49,434 nt of DNA from the NCBI GenBank assembly GCA_016207665.1, contig JACQPG010000043.1, positions 1-49,434 of the forward strand, read 5' to 3'. Of this stretch, positions 29,010 through 41,547 are shown in pieces. Each line of letters opens with the position of its first letter. The first letter of the stretch is position 1. A program made the translations under genes and the position numbers. A model generated the notes under the pieces. That model searched no databases. It had not been told where the DNA came from and saw only the letters and a program-made list of their open reading frames with translations. The DNA is from Elusimicrobiota bacterium. GTDB lineage: Bacteria > Elusimicrobiota > Elusimicrobia > UBA1565 > UBA9628.

Positions 29010-30096
29010 AGTCATACTCTCCGGCGTCAAGAAATCCTTCGGCGATCGCTCGGTGATCAAGGGAGTGGATCTCGAGATCCGCTCGGGCGAGCTTCTCGTC
29101 ATGGTGGGGCCTTCCGGCTGCGGCAAGACCACCCTGCTGCGGCTGATCGCGGGACTCGAGGCCATGGAGGAGGGGGATATCTACATTGGCGGCCGCAAGG
29201 TCAACGAGCTGGTCCCCCGGGATCGCGATATCTCCATGGTGTTCCAATCCTACGCGCTCTATCCTCACATGTCGGTGCGGGAAAACATGGCTTTCGGCTT
29301 GACGCTGCGCCGGCTCCCCGCCGGGGAGATCGACGAGCGGGTGGCCGAAGCCGCGGAGCTCTTGGGCATCGCGGGCTTGCTCGAGCGCAGGCCGGCCGCG
29401 CTTTCGGGAGGGCAGCGCCAGCGGGTGGCCATGGGCCGGGCCATCGTGCGCCGTCCCAAGCTCTTTCTCTTCGATGAGCCGCTCTCGAACCTGGACGCGG
29501 GCCTGCGGGTGCAGATGCGCGGCGAAATAGCCCGATTGCATCGGCGGCTCGGGGCCACGATGATCTATGTTACCCATGACCAGGTCGAGGCCATGACCCT
29601 GGCCAGCCGCCTGGCCGTCTTCGACTCCGGAAGGCTGCTGCAGTCCGGCCCGCCGCTGGAGCTCTATCATCGCCCGGCCAACCGCTTCGTGGCGCAATTC
29701 CTCGGCTCGCCCGCGATGAACATGCTCGAGGCCCGTTTGGAGAGCGGGCGGTTGAGCGGGCGGGGCTTTTCCTTGACCGCCCCGGCGGATCTGTCCGCGG
29801 CGTCGGGTCCGGTGCTCGTGGGTCTTCGGCCCCAGGACCTGCATTTGGCCGATCAAGGGCCGATACGGGGCTGCATCGAGGCGATCGAGAGGCTGGGATC
29901 CGACGGGTACGCCTTCCTCTCCACGGAGGCCGGTCCCGTGGCCGCCCGCTTCGATCCCGATTCTCCGGTCTCAGTGGGCGCCCAGGCCCAGGTCGCGCCA
30001 TGGGGCGACAGCCTCTACGTTTTCAGCCCGGATGGCCAGAGAGCCTTGCGCCATCCGGGGCGCGACGCCGTCCGTCAGACCGCCGCCCAGCCGTGA
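29002..30096 (+). CDS. Sugar ABC transporter ATP-binding protein (MalK/UgpC type)
   Basis: A 364-residue ATPase subunit for carbohydrate uptake. Walker A GPSGCGKTT lies at 36-44, the Q-loop is in VFQSYALYPHMSV, the ABC signature is LSGGQRQRVAMGRA from residue 134, and Walker B is LFLFDEPLSNLD. The H-loop histidine is in YVTHDQ. The C-terminal third (about 240-364) is the TOBE regulatory region of the MalK/UgpC/MsmK group. It overlaps the preceding membrane protein by 8 bp and the following binding-protein/permease fusion by 4 bp. The latter is specific enough to show that these subunits work together. Sugar specificity cannot be read here; the linked GH13 domain suggests maltodextrins. Confidence 0.95.
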   Translation: MSEVILSGVKKSFGDRSVIKGVDLEIRSGELLVMVGPSGCGKTTLLRLIAGLEAMEEGDIYIGGRKVNELVPRDRDISMVFQSYALYPHMSVRENMAFGLTLRRLPAGEIDERVAEAAELLGIAGLLERRPAALSGGQRQRVAMGRAIVRRPKLFLFDEPLSNLDAGLRVQMRGEIARLHRRLGATMIYVTHDQVEAMTLASRLAVFDSGRLLQSGPPLELYHRPANRFVAQFLGSPAMNMLEARLESGRLSGRGFSLTAPADLSAASGPVLVGLRPQDLHLADQGPIRGCIEAIERLGSDGYAFLSTEAGPVAARFDPDSPVSVGAQAQVAPWGDSLYVFSPDGQRALRHPGRDAVRQTAAQP

Positions 30097-32240
30097 TATT
30101 CTCGTCGCTGTTGTTCTTGATCCTGGCGGCTGAGGCTCAACCGCTTAAGCTCTGGCATGCCTATCGCGGCGGCGAGGAGAAGGCCCTGGAAAGGGTGTTG
30201 GCGGCCTACTCCCGGCAAACGGGCCGCCCGGTCGAGCTTCTGGCGGTTCCGTACGACGTTTTCTCCTCCAAGCTCACCGCCGCCATTCCGCATGGCCATG
30301 GCCCTGACGTTTTCATCTATTCGCATGAGAATGTCGGCATGTTCCAGAGATTGGGTCTGGTCGCCCCCTTGGATGGATCGATCCGGCTGGAGGACTATTT
30401 CCCCAACGCGGTGGATGCCCTTCGCATCGAGGGGAGGACCTACGGCTATCCCTTGTCCTTCAAATGCCTGGCTCTCTACCTTAATAACGCCTTGGCGTCC
30501 AAGCCGCCCGAGAACACGCAGCAATGGCTGGCACAGCTTCGCGCCTTGAGCCGGCCCGCCGATAACCGTTTCGGCTTGGCGTATGAGTCCGGAAACTTCT
30601 ATTTTCATGCCCCTTTTCTCTTCGGCTACGGCGGAGAGCTGTTCGATCGCGCGGGACGGGCCCGCTTCGACGGCGAGAGCCTGCCCCGCTCCTTCGCCTT
30701 CGTCAAGAGGCTCCAAGACGAGGGCCTGATACCCCAGGAAACCTCCGGAGCCCTGATCAAATCGCTGTTCAACGAGGGGCGCGCGGCCATGGTGATCAGC
30801 GGTCCCTGGTTCGCGGGGGAGATATCCCCTGGAATCCGCTATTCCATCGCTCCGCTTCCCCGCAACAGCGAGACGGGTCTTCCGCTGAGCCCTTTCCTGG
30901 GAGTCGAGGCGGCCCTGGTTTCATCGCGCTCGGGGGACCAGAGCGGGGCGCGGGGATTGGCTCGCTTCCTGTCTCTGGGGGAGGCCTCGGCGATACGAGC
31001 CACGCTCGGCCGCCAGGTTCCGGCCGATGTGGCGGCTTATCGCAGGCCCGAGCTGCGTTCGGATCCCTTCATCTCCGCTTTCGGCCGCGCCGCGGTCCAT
31101 GCCGCGCCTATGCCCAATACTCCGGAACTGGCCCGGGTTTGGGAGCCGATGAAATTGGCTCTGCGCGGCGTATTGCAAGGCCAGTCTTCCCCGGAGCAAG
31201 GAGCGGCCCTGGCGAGCCGGCGCTATCGCGCGCTCTACCGCGAGCGTCCCCCGGAAGCCTCCCCTCGGCCCTATCTCCTCCTCTTGTTCTTGCTCGGCGT
31301 GGCGATCTCCTTTTGGGCCTGGCGGAGGGCGCGATCGGGCCAGCCCTCGCGTTATCGCCGCCTTGGGAGGGCGATGGCTTATATGGCGCCCGCCGCGGCC
31401 GGGGTCTTCGTCTTGATCGTGTTCCCGCTGCTCATCGGCATGGGGCTGGCCTTTTTCCACCATGAGGCGGGGCGTTTCTCTTTCGTGGGCTTGGCTAATT
31501 TCGTCGACATACTCCGTTCCAGGGGTTATTATGTCAGCGAACCCCTGTCGTTCTACTTCACGCTGGCGGTCACTGTGCTTTGGACCGTGGTCAATGTCGC
31601 GCTGCATGTCGGCATCGGCCTGGCCTTGGCCCTGGCCTTGCGCAGCCCGTTGCTGCGGCTGCGCGGGGTATTCCGCGTGTTGCTCATCGTTCCCTGGGCC
31701 GTTCCCAATTACATCACGGCCCTCATTTGGAAGGGGATGTTCCACCGCCAGTTCGGCGCCATCAACGCCTTGCTGGAGTCGCTCGGAGTCGAGCCCATCA
31801 GCTGGTTCGCGCGTTTTTCCACCGCTTTCGCGGCCAATGTGGCGACCAATACCTGGCTCGGGTTCCCTTTCATGATGGTGGTTTGCTTGGGAGCCCTGCA
31901 GTCCATCCCCTCGGAGCTTTACGAGGCGGCGGAGGTCGACGGCGCCTCGCGTTGGCATCGGTTCCGCCATATCACGCTGCCGCTCTTGCGCCCGGCGCTG
32001 GGTCCGGCCGTGGTTTTGGGCACGATCTGGACTTTCAACATGTTCAACATCGTCTACCTGGTCTCCGGCGGCGAGCCTGGCGGCGGCACGGATATCCTGG
32101 TTTCCGAGGCCTATCGCTGGGCCTTCCAACGCAATGAGCAATACGGCTTCGCGGCCGCTTACTCGGTGCTGATATTCCTGTTCTTGGTCGCCTACACCGC
32201 GTTCCTGAGGAGGATCGCGGGCCGGGCCGAGGCGGCATGA
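30093..32240 (+). CDS. Fused sugar-binding protein and MalF-type permease
   Basis: A 715-residue fusion. The GTG start at 30093 overlaps the ATPase stop codon and encodes a very short signal peptide (IFSSLLFLILAAEA). Residues about 17-385 form an extracellular sugar-binding domain of the MalE type (LKLWHAYRGGEEKALERVL, GPDVFIYSHENVG, MVISGPWFAGE). An extra transmembrane segment (YLLLLFLLGVAISFWAW, about 394-412) then returns the chain to the cytoplasm. The MalF/UgpA-type permease core follows from about 428, with six further segments and the EAA loop (EAAEVDGASRWHRF, from about 611) that contacts the ATPase. The topology is consistent: a periplasmic binding domain tethered to its own channel. 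No separate binding-protein gene is found in the operon. Confidence 0.92.
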   Translation: MIFSSLLFLILAAEAQPLKLWHAYRGGEEKALERVLAAYSRQTGRPVELLAVPYDVFSSKLTAAIPHGHGPDVFIYSHENVGMFQRLGLVAPLDGSIRLEDYFPNAVDALRIEGRTYGYPLSFKCLALYLNNALASKPPENTQQWLAQLRALSRPADNRFGLAYESGNFYFHAPFLFGYGGELFDRAGRARFDGESLPRSFAFVKRLQDEGLIPQETSGALIKSLFNEGRAAMVISGPWFAGEISPGIRYSIAPLPRNSETGLPLSPFLGVEAALVSSRSGDQSGARGLARFLSLGEASAIRATLGRQVPADVAAYRRPELRSDPFISAFGRAAVHAAPMPNTPELARVWEPMKLALRGVLQGQSSPEQGAALASRRYRALYRERPPEASPRPYLLLLFLLGVAISFWAWRRARSGQPSRYRRLGRAMAYMAPAAAGVFVLIVFPLLIGMGLAFFHHEAGRFSFVGLANFVDILRSRGYYVSEPLSFYFTLAVTVLWTVVNVALHVGIGLALALALRSPLLRLRGVFRVLLIVPWAVPNYITALIWKGMFHRQFGAINALLESLGVEPISWFARFSTAFAANVATNTWLGFPFMMVVCLGALQSIPSELYEAAEVDGASRWHRFRHITLPLLRPALGPAVVLGTIWTFNMFNIVYLVSGGEPGGGTDILVSEAYRWAFQRNEQYGFAAAYSVLIFLFLVAYTAFLRRIAGRAEAA

Positions 32241-33082
32241 AAAGTCTTCCCTGGAGAGTGCTGCTGCTCCATGCCGGGCTGGTCATAGCCTGCCTGATCG
32301 CGCTCTATCCGGTGTTGTGGGTGCTGCGTCTGGCCTTTTCCGAGGACGGGACGCTGTCTCTTACGTTGAGCCTGATCCCGGATAAGCCGAGCTGGAGGCA
32401 TTTCTCCGCCATATTGGGAGAGGTGGACGCTCAAGGCCGGTGGATATTCGGCCGGCAATTGCTGGCGAGCTGCCTCGTCTCCACCGCGACCACGATGGTG
32501 GGCCTGGCATTGTCCGTCACTTCCGCCTACGCCCTGTCCCGTTTCTCCTTTCCGGGGCGGCAGGGTTTCATGGGCCTGTTGCTGATCACCCAGATGCTTC
32601 CCGGGACGCTGATGTTGATTCCGCTCTATTCGATACTGGAGAAGCTTGGGCTTCTCGACAGCCTTTCGGGGCTGGCTCTCGTCTACGCCACGACCAGCCT
32701 TCCCTTCTGCGTCTGGATGCTGAAGGGCTATTTCGACACCATCCCCAAGGATCTCGAGGAAGCCGCCGCTATCGACGGAGCCAATGACTGGCAGATCTTT
32801 TGGCGCGTGATTCTTCCCCTGGCGCGCCCGGCCTTGGCCGTGACCGCCCTATTTTCCTTCCTGACGGCTTGGAACGAATTCATCCTCGCCGCCACTCTTC
32901 TCAACGACGCCTCGCGCTTCACCCTTCCCGTGGCCTTGCAGCGCCACGTCGGCGAGTACACCACGGAATGGGGGCTTTTCGCGGCAGGCGCGATCGTCGT
33001 CTCGATCCCCGTCATGGCCCTGTTCTTTTATTTGCAGAAGCACCTGGTGGGGGGACTGACCGCCGGAAGCATCAAGGGCTAG
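32237..33082 (+). CDS. MalG-type sugar ABC transporter permease
   Basis: A 281-residue inner-membrane permease, the usual MalG/UgpE length, with six transmembrane segments. The EAA loop is EEAAAIDGANDWQIFWRVILPL (quoted in part: EEAAAIDGAND), which docks onto the ATPase. It ends with the GGLTAGSIKG tail typical of the family. The start overlaps the stop of the fusion gene by 4 bp (ATGA). With the MalK-type ATPase and the fused binding protein/MalF it completes an importer. The operon seems to end here, because the next gene has its own promoter. Confidence 0.95.
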   Translation: MKSLPWRVLLLHAGLVIACLIALYPVLWVLRLAFSEDGTLSLTLSLIPDKPSWRHFSAILGEVDAQGRWIFGRQLLASCLVSTATTMVGLALSVTSAYALSRFSFPGRQGFMGLLLITQMLPGTLMLIPLYSILEKLGLLDSLSGLALVYATTSLPFCVWMLKGYFDTIPKDLEEAAAIDGANDWQIFWRVILPLARPALAVTALFSFLTAWNEFILAATLLNDASRFTLPVALQRHVGEYTTEWGLFAAGAIVVSIPVMALFFYLQKHLVGGLTAGSIKG

Positions 33083-33626: not shown

Positions 33627-33704
33627 CCTTGGACCCTCTTGGGCGCTATGGGACATTCGTAGAATCGGCTGGCCATTGAGGACAGCAACATCATGGAGCG
33701 TCCA

Positions 33705-35888
33705 ATGAAACGAATGTCATCGCGAATCATCGCATCGCTGCTCGCCGTCGCCTTGTTCGTTTCCCATTTACCGCAGGAGGCGGCCGCATCCGTTGCGCGA
33801 GCCGCTGGGTCCGGGCGTGTCGTGCGTGCCGCTGTTCCCGCCCGCGGCGCGCGATCGGCGGGCCGGCCGCTCGAGTCGCCCCGCTCGGTGATCGCGCAGA
33901 GCGAGACGCCGGGCTCGGCGGCGGGTTCGCCTTCGGCTCACGGTTCTCCCGCCCCGGCGGAGGATCCGCAAGCTCCGCCCACGCCTCAGGTTGTTCCCGT
34001 GGAGGCGCCGGCCGCGGCCAGCGAGAGCGGGCTGCCCTTGGACAAGCTCTATCCCAAGGTGGTCTATATCCAAGACGTGTTCATTCAAGGAGCCCAGCCG
34101 TCCGAGCAGACGATCGCTTCCATTAATAAGCTGCTCGACACGGGAGTCCATGTCGTGTTGTTGACTTGGCGGCCGCACACCGGGCCGAATTCCGCCAAGG
34201 AGGTCATACTCTCCCGCGTCAAGGCGAGCCTCGATAACCCTCTCATCGTGGTCTCCTACAACGGAGGGCGCATCGCCGCGCACACCCGCGAGAATCAGCC
34301 GCCGGCCTTGATCGAGGATTCCGGGGCTTTCGCGCCCAATCATCTGGCGACCTTCGCTCAGATCAACGTCCGCATGGCCCGCGCCCTGAAATTGCCGGCC
34401 TTGGAGCTCGCCAACGAGTCCTTGCCCGGCCCGGACAACGCCTTCAGCTATCGGGTGGAGCTGCCCGAGGGGTTGGCTGACGTCGAGCTGCTCCGCGAGA
34501 GATTTCTCAAGCGCTACAACAAGGCCTTGCAGTCGGAAGGCCTGCCCTTTCGCATGGCGGCGCATCCCGACAACCCGCGCGCCATCATCATGCATTCCAT
34601 GCCCTTGAGATTCCAGCTCGATCGCATCCGCGAGGCTCTTCGGACCCGTTTCTATCCGGACCAGCCGGAGCTTCCGATCAAGCCTTCCGAGGTCCTGGTC
34701 CTGGCGGATTCCAAGCGCTCCCCGCGATTGAGCCATGCCTTCCCCAAGCTCGCCGAGTTCCATGTGGTGCAGACCCCGGCCGAGCTGGAGGCCACGCTGG
34801 GCAGCGTCTTCGGCGCGGAGCTCAGCCCCGTCAACATCCATTTGCGCAAGCTCAAGCAGTTCGTGGAATATTGGCAGCCGTATCGGAGGAGAGTGCCCAG
34901 CCCGGGCGCGGGGCCGCGGGCCGGCTCGGGCATGGTCGAGGGCGGCGGCGACGCGATGCGCCAATTGCAGGCCTTCAAGGGCACCGTGCTCAACGAGCTG
35001 ATTCCCTACATCTATAAGGCGATTTGGAAAGGAGAGGACCGCTACGGCCAATTCCCCGAGATCGAGGCGCTGCTCGTGCGCATGTGGAAGAACCCCATGG
35101 CTTTCCGGATTTGGATGACGGCGCAGATGGCCCAGGCCATGAAAGCCGAGGCTTGGAAGAAGTTGAGCCCGGGAGTGATGAGGCAGGCCATCGCCTTCGC
35201 CTTCAACTGGTGGAATGCCGAGTTCGGCGGCAGGCAATATCCCGAGGCGGCGTGGAATGTGCGCCTCAATCGAGTCAGCTCGCGCGGAGACATGAATAAT
35301 TCGATCACCCTGACCCTGCCCTCTCGCTTCACGCGCAAGGTCTATCAGATACACACGCGGCTTCCTCTGGTCATGAAGGCGCATACGGCCAAGGGCGTGG
35401 AGTTGATCGTCAAGGTGTTACGCACGGGCCAGGACTACGGCACGGACGAGTTCTTCGCCCGGATCTTCGCGGCCGCGGCGGCCAGCACCAGCGGTTTCGG
35501 CCATATCGGGCAGGACGGGCAATGGCATTATATGTCCGAGATCGAGCCCAAGCTCGGCGGGGTCCGGGTCCAGGTGGTCTATAACCGTGGAAGCAAGGTG
35601 TTCAACTATAGCCCGGAGGAGCTTTTCACGCTGGAAAAGAATCCCATGTCCGCCGAGGGTTGGGCCAGGGCTTCGGCCGTCCAAAGATATCGGGTGCGCA
35701 CCGGGCCCAAGACCGACGACGTGATGAGCGTCATCGACATCCAAGAAGCCGACGCCGAATTCCAGGAGTATTGGAAAGAGAACGATAAGCCCGCCTCGAA
35801 GTCGGATTTCAAGAAAGAAAAGAAATCCAAGGGCAAGAAGGCATCGCGCAAGCCCAAGGCAAAATCCAGCCGTCGGGGCCGCAAATGA
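33705..35888 (+). CDS. Exported protein with degenerate HAD-phosphatase-like domain (paralogue A)
   Basis: About 727 residues. ATG 33705 has GGAG 6 nt upstream, although ATG 33693 is also possible. A signal peptide (about 1-28, ending EAAA) is followed by a Pro/Ala/Ser-rich linker to residue 110. Residues 118-370 follow the order of Cof/sucrose-phosphatase-type HAD enzymes: KVVYIQDVFIQG where the nucleophile motif should be, GVHVVLLTWRP (motif II), VVSYNGGRIA (the usual NG loop) and VLVLADSKRS (motif IV). The nucleophile Asp is replaced by Gln, so catalysis is unlikely. The C-terminal half (FNWWNAEFGG, RVSSRGDMNNSITLTLPSRF) is unknown and ends in a Lys/Arg-rich tail. The next gene overlaps by 4 bp and is a paralogue with the same HAD-like core. 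Confidence 0.75.
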   Translation: MKRMSSRIIASLLAVALFVSHLPQEAAASVARAAGSGRVVRAAVPARGARSAGRPLESPRSVIAQSETPGSAAGSPSAHGSPAPAEDPQAPPTPQVVPVEAPAAASESGLPLDKLYPKVVYIQDVFIQGAQPSEQTIASINKLLDTGVHVVLLTWRPHTGPNSAKEVILSRVKASLDNPLIVVSYNGGRIAAHTRENQPPALIEDSGAFAPNHLATFAQINVRMARALKLPALELANESLPGPDNAFSYRVELPEGLADVELLRERFLKRYNKALQSEGLPFRMAAHPDNPRAIIMHSMPLRFQLDRIREALRTRFYPDQPELPIKPSEVLVLADSKRSPRLSHAFPKLAEFHVVQTPAELEATLGSVFGAELSPVNIHLRKLKQFVEYWQPYRRRVPSPGAGPRAGSGMVEGGGDAMRQLQAFKGTVLNELIPYIYKAIWKGEDRYGQFPEIEALLVRMWKNPMAFRIWMTAQMAQAMKAEAWKKLSPGVMRQAIAFAFNWWNAEFGGRQYPEAAWNVRLNRVSSRGDMNNSITLTLPSRFTRKVYQIHTRLPLVMKAHTAKGVELIVKVLRTGQDYGTDEFFARIFAAAAASTSGFGHIGQDGQWHYMSEIEPKLGGVRVQVVYNRGSKVFNYSPEELFTLEKNPMSAEGWARASAVQRYRVRTGPKTDDVMSVIDIQEADAEFQEYWKENDKPASKSDFKKEKKSKGKKASRKPKAKSSRRGRK

Positions 35889-38629
35889 GCTTGTTAAGGG
35901 TGGCTCTGGCGGCAGCCCTCTTGCTGGGACCCGGCTCCGCCGGGGCCGCGACGCGGCCCGCGCAGGCTCCACGCGGCCCCATCCGTTCCCTCTCTGCTCG
36001 GCCGGCGGCTTCGGCCGCTTCCATGGCCCGGCCGCGTCTTTGGACTCCGGCCCAGCCCGCTGCCCCGCGGCCGGTTTCCGCCATGGCCGCGGCCCAAAGC
36101 CTTTCGGAAAAGGGCGGACAAGCTCCGCGAGCCTCGTCCGCGGAGCAGCTTTCCGATATAGGACGCGAATTCGACGAGGGGTCCACGGAGCCCGGATCCG
36201 CGACGGAGGGCAAGCCGGAAAAGATCATCGAAGACATACGCTTTTCGCGCTCCGCGACCCGCCCGTTGCGCTCGGGCCGCATCTACGGCACGGCCCGGCT
36301 CATACGCAATCCCGGCAGCGCCAAATATTGGGGCAAGTACAAGAAGGGGACCTTGATCCGCCTGGCTATGGGCCACCACACCCTCGCCGTGTCCAAGATC
36401 ACCGACGCCAAGACCAAGCGCGTCGATCAAATGACGCTGAAGGATTTCCAAGGGTTGCTCGAGTCCAAGGACATCGAGAAGGCCATGATCCAGCGCCGGG
36501 GCCGGCCCCGGCGAATCAGCCTGTCGCTTTTGAGGCGCCAGTTCCTCGGGGCTCTCTCGGCCTTCCATAGGCATGAGCTTATCCATGGCGGCAGCTTGGT
36601 CCGTGTCATCCATTTCCTTCCCTTTCGCCAAGCCTTGACCCTTCCCGAGAACGGGTTCCTGGAGGATCCGGAGATCTGGTACAAGCCTCGCCCGCGCGGC
36701 GAGGTTGCGATCCCGGAGGGGCTCAAGCGCCTCCATAAAGTATTGCCCAAGGTTGTTTTGCTCGATCTAAGGCTTTTCAACGGCCCCATGAGCTTGGACT
36801 GGATCGAGGACATGGACAAGCTGATGAAGGCGGGCGTGCACATCGTGCTGATCTCCGAGAAGCCGGTGCAAGGTCCCGGATCCATCGAGGAAGTGTTGAC
36901 GGGAGGGCTGGGCCCCCGGCACAAGGACAGATTCGCCCGCTACAAGCTGGTCAGCCTGGGCGAGAACGGCAATTCCCTGGCTCAATACCAGGGAAGCTTC
37001 CCTTCGTTCCTGCCCTCGCCCCGCTTCTCGCCGGAGCACATAGAGCTGATGGAGTATCTCGCTCAGGCGGAGGGCCTCGAACTGCTCGAAAAGGGGGGCG
37101 GGAGATTTTCCGTGGCCGTGCTGGCGGGAGAAGACGCGGCCGCGGCCGCCGAGCGTTTGGCGGGCCGTCTGCGATCTCATGGAGGCCCGGTCCAGTACGA
37201 TCTCAAGGTGGAGCCTCGCGGCAGGGGCAACGCCTTGATCCTGCGCCCGACCGGTCTCATGGGCGCCATCCCCCATCTTCTCGGCGTCATGCGCGATGAG
37301 CTTGACGTCTTCGTCCATCCCTCGGACATGATGATCATAAGCGGCGATGCTCAACTCAAGGAGGCGCTGCCCGGGGCGATCTGGACCCAGGATCACGCGC
37401 CGGCTTTGGGAGGCGATTCGCTCATCGAGATGTCGCTCGCCGCCTTGCTGGGCCCCTATCGGATCAATAAATCCCGTGACGTGGTCGGCTCGGCCTCCAT
37501 GCTCAACTCCTTCATGAACAAGAAGGACTGGGGCGAAGGGGTCAGCGTCGATCAATTGATGGGCACCTCGGTGCACGTGGCCTTCAACTGGGCTTTGTGG
37601 GTATATCGGGCTGCCGGCGCGCTCCCGCCGGTGGAGGAAGTGATCGAAAAGGCGAAACGTCGATGGGAGCGAGAGCAGGAGCGGAAAGATATATCGATCT
37701 CCATGATGCCTGGGGCCGACGCCGGCGGGTATCGGGACGTGATGATAGACCGGCTCAGGAGCATGTACGCTTCCATCGGCCGGCTCCTGGCCGAATTCCC
37801 GATCGTGCAGGGCACCGAGCTGCCCAACCTTCATGTCTTCGACTGGTACAGGAGAGGGAACTGGGACCATCGCGATATCGCCCGCATCATCCATGACCTG
37901 GTGGTCGCGCAAGAGATCCCGGGAGGCATCAAGCAAAAGATAGTCGATCTGAAGGCCGGTCAGACCCCGACTCGCAAGGGTAATGGTCAGAAGCTTCAGG
38001 TCCAGCTATACGACCTGGTCGCGCAAGAGATATCGGAAGCGCCTATTCCGCATAAGTCGGACGGTGAATGGCGTCGGGTCATGGAAAACAGCATCGCCTT
38101 GTTGACGCCGGCAGGGATGCAGGAGCCGACCCTGCACGATTGGTCCCGCGCGAAATTCAAGAGATATCTGCGCAACAAGTTCAATGCGGTCAGGTGCGAG
38201 TGGTTCCAAGGCAAGGATGAGCTGAAGGCAGCCGCCAAGGGAGCGGCCGTCGCCGGCGCCGCTGCGAATTTCCCGGCCGGAGAGCTGCGCCTGCCGCGCA
38301 AGGTGCCGGGCCTGAAGATCAAGGCCAAATACGTCCGCATGATCGTCTCGGGTCGTAAGAAGACCGAGTTTAGGACCATGCCCGCCACCCCGCAGCCCTA
38401 TATCGCGATCATACAGACGTTCACAGACGAGGAGCCCGGCCGGCCGGCCGAGGTGGTGGCCTTCGCGCGGCTCGAGAAGGTCACGGGCAGCCGCGAGAGC
38501 GGTTTTGCCTGGCATTTGACCCACATTACCCCGGTCAAGCCTTATGCGGCGCCGCCGCGCCCCGGAGCTATTACCTGGCTGAGGGACGTGCCGGTCACGG
38601 GGGCCAAGCGCCTGGGGAAGGCGCCGTGA
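35885..38629 (+). CDS. Exported protein with degenerate HAD-like domain and C-terminal ASCH-like domain (paralogue B)
   Basis: A 914-residue protein with a signal peptide (SLLRVALAAALLLGPGSAGA) and an Ala/Pro/Arg-rich linker to about residue 115. Residues 289-490 repeat the HAD-like order of paralogue A: KVVLLDLRLFNG (nucleophile position Asp kept, second Asp replaced by Arg), GVHIVLISEKP, LGENGNSLAQ and MMIISGDAQ. Near 813-830 a segment (IKAKYVRMIVSGRKKTEFR) and the following PYIAIIQTF resemble the ASCH fold, which binds RNA or modified nucleotides in other proteins. That would be unusual in an exported protein. The start overlaps paralogue A by 4 bp and the exporter gene's GTG overlaps its stop, so all three are co-translated. 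Function unknown. Confidence 0.72.
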   Translation: MSLLRVALAAALLLGPGSAGAATRPAQAPRGPIRSLSARPAASAASMARPRLWTPAQPAAPRPVSAMAAAQSLSEKGGQAPRASSAEQLSDIGREFDEGSTEPGSATEGKPEKIIEDIRFSRSATRPLRSGRIYGTARLIRNPGSAKYWGKYKKGTLIRLAMGHHTLAVSKITDAKTKRVDQMTLKDFQGLLESKDIEKAMIQRRGRPRRISLSLLRRQFLGALSAFHRHELIHGGSLVRVIHFLPFRQALTLPENGFLEDPEIWYKPRPRGEVAIPEGLKRLHKVLPKVVLLDLRLFNGPMSLDWIEDMDKLMKAGVHIVLISEKPVQGPGSIEEVLTGGLGPRHKDRFARYKLVSLGENGNSLAQYQGSFPSFLPSPRFSPEHIELMEYLAQAEGLELLEKGGGRFSVAVLAGEDAAAAAERLAGRLRSHGGPVQYDLKVEPRGRGNALILRPTGLMGAIPHLLGVMRDELDVFVHPSDMMIISGDAQLKEALPGAIWTQDHAPALGGDSLIEMSLAALLGPYRINKSRDVVGSASMLNSFMNKKDWGEGVSVDQLMGTSVHVAFNWALWVYRAAGALPPVEEVIEKAKRRWEREQERKDISISMMPGADAGGYRDVMIDRLRSMYASIGRLLAEFPIVQGTELPNLHVFDWYRRGNWDHRDIARIIHDLVVAQEIPGGIKQKIVDLKAGQTPTRKGNGQKLQVQLYDLVAQEISEAPIPHKSDGEWRRVMENSIALLTPAGMQEPTLHDWSRAKFKRYLRNKFNAVRCEWFQGKDELKAAAKGAAVAGAAANFPAGELRLPRKVPGLKIKAKYVRMIVSGRKKTEFRTMPATPQPYIAIIQTFTDEEPGRPAEVVAFARLEKVTGSRESGFAWHLTHITPVKPYAAPPRPGAITWLRDVPVTGAKRLGKAP

Positions 38630-41547
38630 GGATCGCGAACAAAGAAAGCCGGCTAAAAGGGCTCATGGCCGCGGCGATCGCCGCCACCCTTATCATCCTT
38701 TCGCCCGGCTTGGGATTCTATGAAGCTTCGGCCGCGATGCTGAAGGGAAGGTTCGCGGCGGGGGCTAAACCGCTGCGCTTGGGATTGCGGCGCCTGCCGG
38801 GGAGGGAGGCTTTATCCGTTTCCCGCCCGCCATCGGCGGCCTCGGGAAATCCGGTGATGGTTGGAGGTGCGGCTTCCATCCTGCCCAAGATAGAGCGGGA
38901 AGAACCGGTTGTTCCGACCCAGGATCTGGCGAGCCGGCTGTCGGAGCGCGTTGGAATGCTTGCGGGGCGGGAGAGCGACGGCCATACGGAGGTTTTGGAC
39001 TCGGTTTATCTAGGCTCGCGGCCTCGGGAGCGATCCCAGATCGAGTTGCCCGGAAAATCTGGGACCCCCGCGCCTGCTTTGTCCGCGGCGAGCTCTTCGC
39101 GCGCTGGGCGGTTTGAAACGAGCCTGCGCGGCGCGGGCGCTTTCGCGGCCATGGCTCCGTTGGCCGTCAGTCCGGCTTTGCCCGAGGGGCTCATCTCCTG
39201 GATTTCTCAGGCCTGGCCCTTTGTCGCGCCCGCGCTCGGGGCGGCGGTCGGCATTTGGCTTTCCTCCTTCGACCCTCTCAAGACGTGGATCAGGACCCCG
39301 CGATTCCAATTGCGTCACACGGCTTTGATCACGGCTTCTCTTGGGCTCTTGGCCGCGGCCATGACGGTCTCAGGCCCCTTGGGTTGGGCCGCTGCTCCGG
39401 CCGCCGGCTTGACCGTAGTCGCGGGCGTCTATCCCTTGTGGAGCATGGGGAACGAGGCCGTCCGGGTGATCAAGGCCAGGGCCGCCTGGTTTCGCAAGTT
39501 CTGGAAAGGAGTGGACTCGGCCGGCATCAAGGTCAAGGGCGATTTCCGGGTGGCCGCCGGCCTGGCGTTATTCATGGTGGGCATGAAATTCCTGGAGGTC
39601 TATATCTATGGAAAGGCCTTCAAGCTTTTCGTCACCAGCTTGCCGGCCGTCAGGCTGAACGAGCCGGCCGCCTGGCATAATATGCTCGAGCCCCTTTTCC
39701 AGGTGCCCGTGGTCAGCCAGTTCGTCCTGCTCATCTCTTCCTGGATCGCGGTGCAGGCCATGGAATCCTGGACCTATAAGTTCTATTCGCGGCGCATGTT
39801 CACCATCGGCAACAAGATCATGACGGGCCTCAATCACCAATTCATCAAACACGTGATGATGCTTCCCATGCAATGGCATAACAAGAACTCGGTGGGCACC
39901 GTGGTTTCGACCGCGACCGACGCCATTTATCAGGCGCAGAAGATCTCCACGGACATGATCATCACCATGGTGCGCAGCGGTCCTATGGTGCTGGGCAGCT
40001 TGGCCGGCATGCTTTGGATAGCCTGGTGGATGTCGGCCTGGGTGGTCCCGGCCTTCGGGATACTCCTGTCCATTCCGGTGGTGCTCTACAGCCATAAGAC
40101 CCAGGAAGTCTACCGGGAGTTCTTCTCCAGGGCCAAGCCAAGGCTCGCCGGCGGCATCAAGGAGATCAAGGACGCGGTCGAGACCATCAAGGCCTCCGGA
40201 CGAGAGGAGCAGGAGATCGAGCGGGTCAGCCGGATGGGCCATGACGCCTACATGGTCAAGGGAGGCGAGATCGCGCGGGTGACGGCGCCCGCCTACGCCT
40301 TGGAGTCATTTGTGCCCAGATTCGCCGATTTCACGCTATTGATGGCTTCGGGCTATTTTTTCGTGATCCGCTGGATCGAGCTGGAGACCGCCACCATCTT
40401 CTACAACCTGAGCCGGTATTTCCGGGATCATATGCAGAACCTGATCGGCCTCTATTTGAAGGTGAGCCAGATGATCGGGACGGCCGACCGCTACGATAAG
40501 GTCATGGACTCGGTGACCGAGAATCTCAATCTTTCGGGCCATAAGCTGGCGAGCACGGGCCTGGGCTGGTCGGCTCGATTGGACGGCGTGACCTTCGGCT
40601 ATAAAAATGACGAGCCCGTGTTGCATGACGTCAGCTTGGACATCGAGCGCGGCAAGAGGGTGGCCTTCGTAGGCACCAGCGGCTCCGGCAAATCCACCGT
40701 GGCGCGGCTGCTCTTAGGCCTCCATAAGACCCAGCGAGGGAAGGTCTTGATCGAGGGCCGGGACCTGGATTCGCTCAGCCTCCTTCATCTGCGGCAGCGG
40801 ACCGGGACCATATTGCAGAACCCCATCCCTTTCGGCATGAGCATCGCGGAGAACATCGCCTGGCTCGACCCCGGGGCCAGCGAGGAGTCGATCTGGAGCG
40901 CGGCGGCCAAGGTGGGCTTGCACGACGATATCGCCTTGATCGGTTTCCGGAGGTCTTTATCCCTGGAGAAGGATGCCCGTCCGGACGAGGTCGAGCTGAT
41001 GTCGGAGATCAAAAGGGGCATAATGGCTCTGCGCATGCGCTTGGAAGGCCCTGAGGCCGCGCTGGAACTGCGTGAGAACAAGACCATCCTGGAAAACTTG
41101 CCGCCGCGGGGCTCTTCCGTCTACGCCCAGGCGCCTGAATGGGAGGCGCTGGAGAAGAACATCATCCGTTTGGGTTATCGCACGCAGGTCGACGAGCGCG
41201 GCACCAATCTCTCCGGGGGCCAGGTGCAGCGATTGCTGCTGTCCCGGTTCTTCATCAACCCGCAGGTCCCCTGGGACATGCTGATCCTAGATGAGCCTAC
41301 GGCGGCCTTGGATAGCACCAACCAAGCCATATTCCAACGCGCGATCGACGAGATCCGGGGCAAGACCACGGTCATCATGATCGCCCATCGATTGAGTACC
41401 GTGCAGGACGCGGATAAGATCGTGGTGTTTCATCAGGGGAGGATCATGGAGCAGGGTTTCCACGCGGAGCTCATGGCCAAAGAGGAGGGCGTTTACCGCA
41501 AGCTGTGGGAAAAGCAGCGCCTGGACGAGGAGTTGGGCGGCCGATGA
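38626..41547 (+). CDS. ABC exporter with signal-like N-terminal extension and ATPase-domain insertion
   Basis: A 973-residue half-transporter of the type I exporter family. The GTG start (38626) overlaps the previous stop. Unlike normal exporters it begins with a signal-peptide-like segment (LMAAAIAATLIILSPGLGF) and about 160 further residues of disordered linker before extra hydrophobic segments (about 185-290). The exporter membrane domain then runs to about 640. The ATPase domain shows Walker A GTSGSGKST (683-691), LSGGQ (862-866), Walker B LILDEPTAAL and the H-loop AHRLS. Between the helical subdomain (about 764) and the signature there are about 75 additional residues (from GFRRSLSLEKD to LEKNIIRLGY) not found in typical family members. 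It probably acts with the two exported HAD-like proteins or exports their substrate. Confidence 0.88.
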   Translation: MRIANKESRLKGLMAAAIAATLIILSPGLGFYEASAAMLKGRFAAGAKPLRLGLRRLPGREALSVSRPPSAASGNPVMVGGAASILPKIEREEPVVPTQDLASRLSERVGMLAGRESDGHTEVLDSVYLGSRPRERSQIELPGKSGTPAPALSAASSSRAGRFETSLRGAGAFAAMAPLAVSPALPEGLISWISQAWPFVAPALGAAVGIWLSSFDPLKTWIRTPRFQLRHTALITASLGLLAAAMTVSGPLGWAAAPAAGLTVVAGVYPLWSMGNEAVRVIKARAAWFRKFWKGVDSAGIKVKGDFRVAAGLALFMVGMKFLEVYIYGKAFKLFVTSLPAVRLNEPAAWHNMLEPLFQVPVVSQFVLLISSWIAVQAMESWTYKFYSRRMFTIGNKIMTGLNHQFIKHVMMLPMQWHNKNSVGTVVSTATDAIYQAQKISTDMIITMVRSGPMVLGSLAGMLWIAWWMSAWVVPAFGILLSIPVVLYSHKTQEVYREFFSRAKPRLAGGIKEIKDAVETIKASGREEQEIERVSRMGHDAYMVKGGEIARVTAPAYALESFVPRFADFTLLMASGYFFVIRWIELETATIFYNLSRYFRDHMQNLIGLYLKVSQMIGTADRYDKVMDSVTENLNLSGHKLASTGLGWSARLDGVTFGYKNDEPVLHDVSLDIERGKRVAFVGTSGSGKSTVARLLLGLHKTQRGKVLIEGRDLDSLSLLHLRQRTGTILQNPIPFGMSIAENIAWLDPGASEESIWSAAAKVGLHDDIALIGFRRSLSLEKDARPDEVELMSEIKRGIMALRMRLEGPEAALELRENKTILENLPPRGSSVYAQAPEWEALEKNIIRLGYRTQVDERGTNLSGGQVQRLLLSRFFINPQVPWDMLILDEPTAALDSTNQAIFQRAIDEIRGKTTVIMIAHRLSTVQDADKIVVFHQGRIMEQGFHAELMAKEEGVYRKLWEKQRLDEELGGR

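Follow-up and report, generated by a model that had tools for sequence, protein, structure and literature searches.

RecB-type nucleases are core cytosolic enzymes of repair and defence. In RecBCD and AddAB, an inactive nuclease-like or helicase-like domain is paired with an active subunit. A secreted member of the PD-(D/E)XK group is the toxin PoNe (PMC6688995). We analysed a gene pair in a 49,434-nucleotide stretch of DNA, here called the window (Elusimicrobiota bacterium, GCA_016207665.1, contig JACQPG010000043.1, positions 1 to 49,434). A preliminary description had placed tandem exported pseudo-phosphatases of the HAD fold at 33705-38629. We observed two adjacent ORFs there, on the same strand and with a 4-nt overlap, and found nothing on the pair in the literature. 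The anatomy of the two proteins, A and B, points to what is probably an undescribed, exported, two-part nuclease. The features of the locus are as follows.

33693 to 35888, + strand: protein A, 731 aa, probably starting at ATG 33705 (residue 5) and built of a putative signal peptide, linker, HAD-IIB-like domain and catalytically dead RecB-like domain
33705 to 33788, + strand: signal-peptide-like segment of A, residues 5-32, MKRMSSRIIASLLAVALFVSHLPQEAAA (sequence, crude detector)
33789 to 34025, + strand: Ala/Pro/Ser-rich linker of A, residues 33-111, which aligns poorly among homologues
34026 to 34847, + strand: HAD-IIB-like domain of A, residues 112-385 (AF2 model, Foldseek, conservation)
34848 to 35762, + strand: pseudonuclease domain of A, residues 386-690 (hhalign to the B domain)
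35763 to 35885, + strand: Lys/Arg-rich C-terminal tail of A (sequence), basic in most family members
35885 to 38629, + strand: protein B, 914 aa, sharing 4 nt (ATGA) with the end of A
35885 to 35947, + strand: signal-peptide-like segment of B, residues 1-21 (sequence, crude detector)
35948 to 36217, + strand: linker of B, residues 22-111, with an xFDG box in most homologues and REFDEG in the window
36218 to 36670, + strand: N-terminal ASCH/YqfB-like domain of B, residues 112-262 (strand-helix order in the model, Foldseek)
36722 to 37444, + strand: HAD-IIB-like domain of B, residues 280-520, with D294 kept, Arg296 at the second position, S/T and the DG loop kept, and motif IV degenerate
37445 to 38209, + strand: RecB-type PD-(D/E)XK nuclease domain of B, residues 521-775, with H564, E645, D671, D688, K690, Q705 and Y709
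38267 to 38599, + strand: C-terminal ASCH domain of B, residues 795-905, present in just two further homologues
38626 to 41547, + strand: downstream ABC exporter, 973 aa (Pfam), sharing its first 4 nt with the end of B; a cassette member by position

We observed that A and B are paralogous along most of their length, as had been proposed (BLASTP, 29% over 108 aa, E = 1e-7; profile-profile comparison, probability 99.9, E = 1.5e-33, 488 columns). Each has a signal-peptide-like start, a long linker, a HAD-IIB domain (Cof/PMM/IMP-nucleotidase-like) and then a second domain; the HAD domain makes up only about one third of each protein. AlphaFold models, run on sequences of the window and of related loci only and built with homologue alignments, covered residues 105-731 of A (pLDDT 83.5, pTM 0.79) and 106-914 of B (pLDDT 78.6, pTM 0.73). 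This anatomy, comprising the paralogy, the folds and an intact versus a decayed nuclease site, is well supported. Neither window protein alone gave a confident Pfam match (best for A: Hydrolase_3, E = 0.1). No Pfam or NCBIfam model covers A, and B fell below the curated PDDEXK_1 cut-off (E = 0.0044), so it is fair to call the pair the least described system in the window, as had been suggested. Sequence-profile searches of the PDB with A and B returned no convincing relative.

The B domain at residues 521-775 shows the RecB-family pattern GHVxH, GTE(L/I)PN, RDIxRxxFDF, DFKTG and QVxLY. All seven nuclease residues listed above were 100% invariant (31/31 homologues covering them) while the second motif I position of the HAD domain varied, and this site is the most strictly conserved residue set of the family. 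The motifs of the window copy have drifted (GHVxH to GTSVH, FDF to HDL, DFKTG to DLKAG), and the catalytic positions stay. PDDEXK_1 matched 13 of 17 members of the B family (best, 6.6e-11), and Foldseek matched the B model to a phage PD-(D/E)XK nuclease (8.2e-8) and to AddB (7.8e-3). A Pfam search at E up to 10 found no helicase family in A or B, and no conserved Cys occurred among the invariant or nearly invariant alignment columns of B. PDDEXK_1 also matches other proteins of the same genome more strongly, two large ORFs on contig C92 among them; B is therefore not its only RecB-type nuclease.

The second domain of A aligned with the B nuclease domain (hhalign, probability 93, E = 3.4e-7; cross-domain controls, <3%). 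The DFKTG motif of B reads VLRTG in window A and xYRTG in most A homologues, in which R577 and G579 are invariant. Equivalents of the H, D and DxK residues were absent from the aligned A homologues.

Two further regions of B resemble ASCH domains. Foldseek matched the B model to YqfB (9kyf, TMt 0.73) and to a viral ASCH protein (TMt 0.75), in output that is silent on which of the two ASCH regions matched. Residues 112-262 had no match in Pfam or PDB sequence profiles. The region of locus L062 homologous to the C-terminal domain scored 23.8 bits (Pfam cut-off, 21.2), and the window copy gave E = 0.08.

Structure prediction bore out the HAD fold (Foldseek, both HAD-IIB: A, 4bnd, E = 8.7e-9, TMt 0.67; B, 6rmd, E = 1.3e-8). 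The closest folds of the HAD parts included IMP nucleotidases and phosphomannomutases, and also sugar phosphatases. The motif II Thr/Ser and the NG/DG loop were kept in both proteins, as described, and D128, T158, N190-G191 and R311 of A were invariant or nearly so. The acidic motif IV (GDxxND) was absent (SGDAQ in B, ADSKRS in A) and is degenerate across the family. The reported losses of catalytic Asp held in part. The Arg at the second motif I position of B is present in the window, and most homologues have R, S, A or K there; the nucleophile D294, however, was kept in 32/32 homologues, and Asp stood at the second position (DxD present) in 10/32, which form one clade, L063 and L061 among them, with a single change on the tree. 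The DxD motif was thus lost in part of the family only, and phosphatase or nucleotidase activity may persist in this clade. For A, strand register sets Q127 opposite D294 of B, in agreement with the Gln reported at the nucleophile position, but the A-B profile alignment puts D294 opposite a gap and places D128 of A on the second position. D128 was invariant (31/31, with F130 at +2), and residue 127 varied among homologues (Q/L/E/P/H/F). Loss of the nucleophile in A is plausible, and the motifs suggest that the window pair are likely pseudo-phosphatases.

A was found in 32 and B in 33 of 147 related genomes searched. The two genes were side by side on the same strand wherever a contig spanned both, usually with a spacing of -4 to +10 nt; in the window, A, B and the ABC exporter are linked by consecutive 4-nt overlaps. 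Across the phylum, 36/341 genomes had A-B profile matches, a few of them weak and partial, and all belonged to the window's class of Elusimicrobiota. The co-translation layout, the recurring neighbours described below and the taxonomic restriction are direct results of computation. A profile scan of genome contigs with a narrower alignment gave 21 loci, most titled Elusimicrobia/Elusimicrobiota; a pattern scan of genome contigs with B alone gave no match. Named relatives were mostly Elusimicrobia or Elusimicrobiota metagenome assemblies, with one complete chromosome (CP096137). No A-B homologues were found in plasmid, phage and IMG/VR collections. Further paralogues, which had been thought worth seeking, did not turn up in the same genome (incomplete, 88%), where searches with A and B each returned only the other pair member. 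Its PF08282 matches on contigs C27 and C135 were rejected as A-B paralogues; judged by sequence, these matches cover the HAD region in a KdsC-like protein and in a metal P-type ATPase. On a quick B tree, each of the families f2, f3 and f11 formed one group and f1 appeared in more than one place; the tree largely tracks host families. In f2, two complete A copies adjoin B and in several genomes form a single fused ORF (upstream of B in L053 9821-14095 and L057 8940-13262), which suggests several A per B.

Both window proteins have the signal-peptide-like starts that had been noted. Their homologues open with what look like textbook signal peptides, such as MKTVPLFLSLSLLINSVSPAMAQ, and many A presequences have a textbook AxA-Q end. 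A crude detector found a signal-peptide-like start in 21/28 A and 17/26 B homologues versus 34/352 background ORFs (ORFs of at least 300 aa from 800 kb of the related genome G037). We observed no later TM-like segment in window A or B. The presequences moderately support the view that A and B act outside the cytosol. The xFDG box occurred in 8/24 proteins with a signal and an Ala/Pro-rich linker versus 7/195 other signal-like proteins (Fisher p = 2.5e-5, with criteria chosen after the motif had been seen). As a genome-wide export tag it was rejected, being enriched and not universal.

A signal-like start, Ala/Pro-rich linker and xFDG box also stood before unrelated domains, at L045 4819-7185, L046 11627-12853, L150 4274-7480, L151 1044-5300 and L170 6545-8476. 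Domains behind such presequences were MFS, M28 peptidase, a protein resembling 4-alpha-glucanotransferase, a double ABC exporter (L151) and a LOG-type protein. Transporters and some ligases near A-B (L045-L078; window 38626-41547) had a signal-like start ending in [S/A]PGLxxY[E/Q]AxA, which reads SPGLGFYEASA in the window exporter; this ending spans unrelated families (MFS, ABC, ATP-grasp fusion). In the sequence examined, 23/24 matches to SPGLxxYxAxA lay in a loosely defined signal-like context, many of them being mutual homologues. Among the L-amino-acid-ligase-type ATP-grasp proteins, L063 13287-16682 lacks any TM segment beyond its signal peptide, and L049 238-4992 has a signal peptide with the ligase behind a membrane-transporter-like region. 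ATP is normally not available in the periplasm, so either the presequences of these neighbours do not direct ordinary export or the mode of action of the enzymes has gone unrecognised. Such presequences on ATP-dependent proteins near A-B make us less sure where A and B themselves reside, and simple export is not to be assumed. It is improbable, in our estimate, that a lineage-specific Elusimicrobia presequence directs normally cytosolic enzymes to a single place beyond the cytosol, to function there jointly as a cassette. Such a presequence would consist of a signal-like helix and an Ala/Pro-rich linker, often with an xFDG box or SPGLxxYxAxA end, and its cargo would include the RecB-type nuclease pair, the ATP-dependent peptide ligase and transporters.

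Other genes at and around these loci also drew our attention. A 1336-aa protein with a signal-like start (L154 168-4178) adjoins a protein matching the N-terminal region of B; by eye it contains DEDD exonuclease-like and HAD-like parts, TM segments and a beta-lactamase-type serine hydrolase. Upstream in the window, one ORF (30000-32240) apparently joins an extracellular solute-binding protein to an ABC permease, and a second permease lies at 32237-33082.

We propose that A and B are two subunits of a lineage-specific Elusimicrobia nuclease acting outside the cytosol, B being catalytic and A dead, a reading to which we give an even chance of being right. The PD-(D/E)XK domain of B would hydrolyse nucleic acid in a metal-dependent manner via D671, D688 and K690, with H564 and the QxxxY motif. 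A would have arisen by duplication, lost its nuclease site through decay and been retained as a partner subunit. The degenerate HAD-IIB domains of both proteins would probably serve in phosphate or nucleotide-end binding, or in assembly, and not as phosphatases, and the ASCH-type domains of B would probably contact bases or modified bases. With putative Sec-type signal peptides on both proteins, the complex would most likely reside in the periplasm or outside the cell, where it may degrade or process foreign or environmental nucleic acid beside a membrane transporter. The heteromer, its export, its substrate and its biological role are what we infer. All RecB-family nucleases that we know of are cytosolic, which counts against an exported one. 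So does the catalogue of secreted nucleases, which lists the HNH, NUC, SNase and endonuclease types (PMC11495043).

We consider it distinctly improbable that A and B are, as the preliminary description had it, exported pseudo-phosphatases with a main job in sugar-phosphate binding or structure. The HAD fold, the degenerate motifs I and IV of both proteins and the signal peptides agree with such a role, but it leaves out the intact, invariant nuclease site and the ASCH domains of B, and the nearest folds also include enzymes other than sugar-phosphate phosphatases. The earlier observation is largely right and its interpretation incomplete, with one domain taken for the whole. It is doubtful that A and B are instead cytosolic or membrane-tethered, with a presequence that is a lineage-specific N-terminal extension and no ordinary Sec export. 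Similar presequences, in some cases of the shared SPGLxxYxAxA variant, on MFS and ABC proteins and on an ATP-dependent ligase argue for this, as does the L151 double ABC exporter, whose presequence brings no obvious extra membrane segment ahead of the first TM. The A and B presequences, however, have the look of cleavable signal peptides of the textbook kind, and no TM-like segment follows them in the window copies.

The neighbours bear on what the proposed nuclease might serve. An L-amino-acid-ligase-type ATP-grasp gene occurred in 14 A-B loci, an M28 peptidase gene directly upstream of A in 12 and an MFS transporter gene in about 18, mostly downstream of B; the ligase matched the L-amino-acid ligase BL00235 (PDB, E = 7.5e-13) and also BacD, and has a LAL_C2 domain. 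These neighbours are no less compatible with a peptide-metabolite pathway than with nucleic-acid scavenging, and may fit it better. A and B might then be a maturation or self-protection part of a cassette in which ligase, M28 and transporter make and export a small peptide, by a bacilysin-like logic (BacD ligase plus BacE MFS), and would have as substrate either a nucleotide-linked intermediate or nucleic acid that the product targets. We regard this as unlikely: the window pair has none of the three next to it, a ligase homologue (65%) lying on another contig (C77), and we know of no chemistry that ties a RecB nuclease to a peptide-metabolite pathway. We think it quite unlikely that A-B is a nuclease for defence which encounters incoming phage or plasmid DNA at the envelope, its ASCH domains sensing modified bases. 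The patchy presence of the pair (36/341 genomes) would fit. Conflict systems include ASCH-REase fusions (PMC10853773), and fusing PUA-superfamily readers to nucleases is an established design for modification dependence (PMC7897488). A PADLOC search of A-B, however, gave weak partial matches only (best E = 0.0037; none convincing), no defence-island neighbours were seen at A-B loci, and the pair is single copy in a recurring, metabolic-looking neighbourhood, with a B tree that largely follows the host.

If the exported two-subunit nuclease is real, a conserved RecB-type nuclease with a signal peptide, a dead paralogue, a pseudo-phosphatase and ASCH modules would widen where and how this fold is used. 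The pair offers a testable entry point into the poorly known biology of free-living Elusimicrobiota, and the presequences on its ATP-dependent neighbours raise a concrete question of cell biology.

Compared with RecB-family nucleases (PDDEXK_1; COG2887; AddB C-terminal domain; phage RecB-like exonucleases), B is alike in its fold and in the GxxxH, D, DxK and QxxxY motifs. It differs in lacking a helicase domain and the conserved Cys of an Fe-S cluster, and in its putative signal peptide, HAD-IIB and ASCH fusion and dead paralogue partner. The four conserved Cys of the Cas4/AddB Fe-S nucleases are missing from the invariant columns of the B alignment. The HAD domains share their fold, motif II T/S and NG loop with HAD-IIB proteins (Cof, sucrose/trehalose-P phosphatases, phosphomannomutase) and the IMP-specific 5'-nucleotidase ISN1, whereas DxD is broken in A and most B, motif IV is degenerate, a putative signal peptide is present and the HAD domain of B is lodged between ASCH and nuclease. 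The pairing of active and inactive related subunits recalls RecBCD/AddAB by analogy only; A-B has no helicase, carries unrelated accessory domains and occurs in one Elusimicrobiota class only. PoNe-type secreted toxins, likened here by description only, carry a PD-(D/E)XK domain that acts outside the producer cytosol, as that of B would if export is right; in contrast to them, A-B shows no delivery marker domain or immunity gene and has RecB-type motifs.
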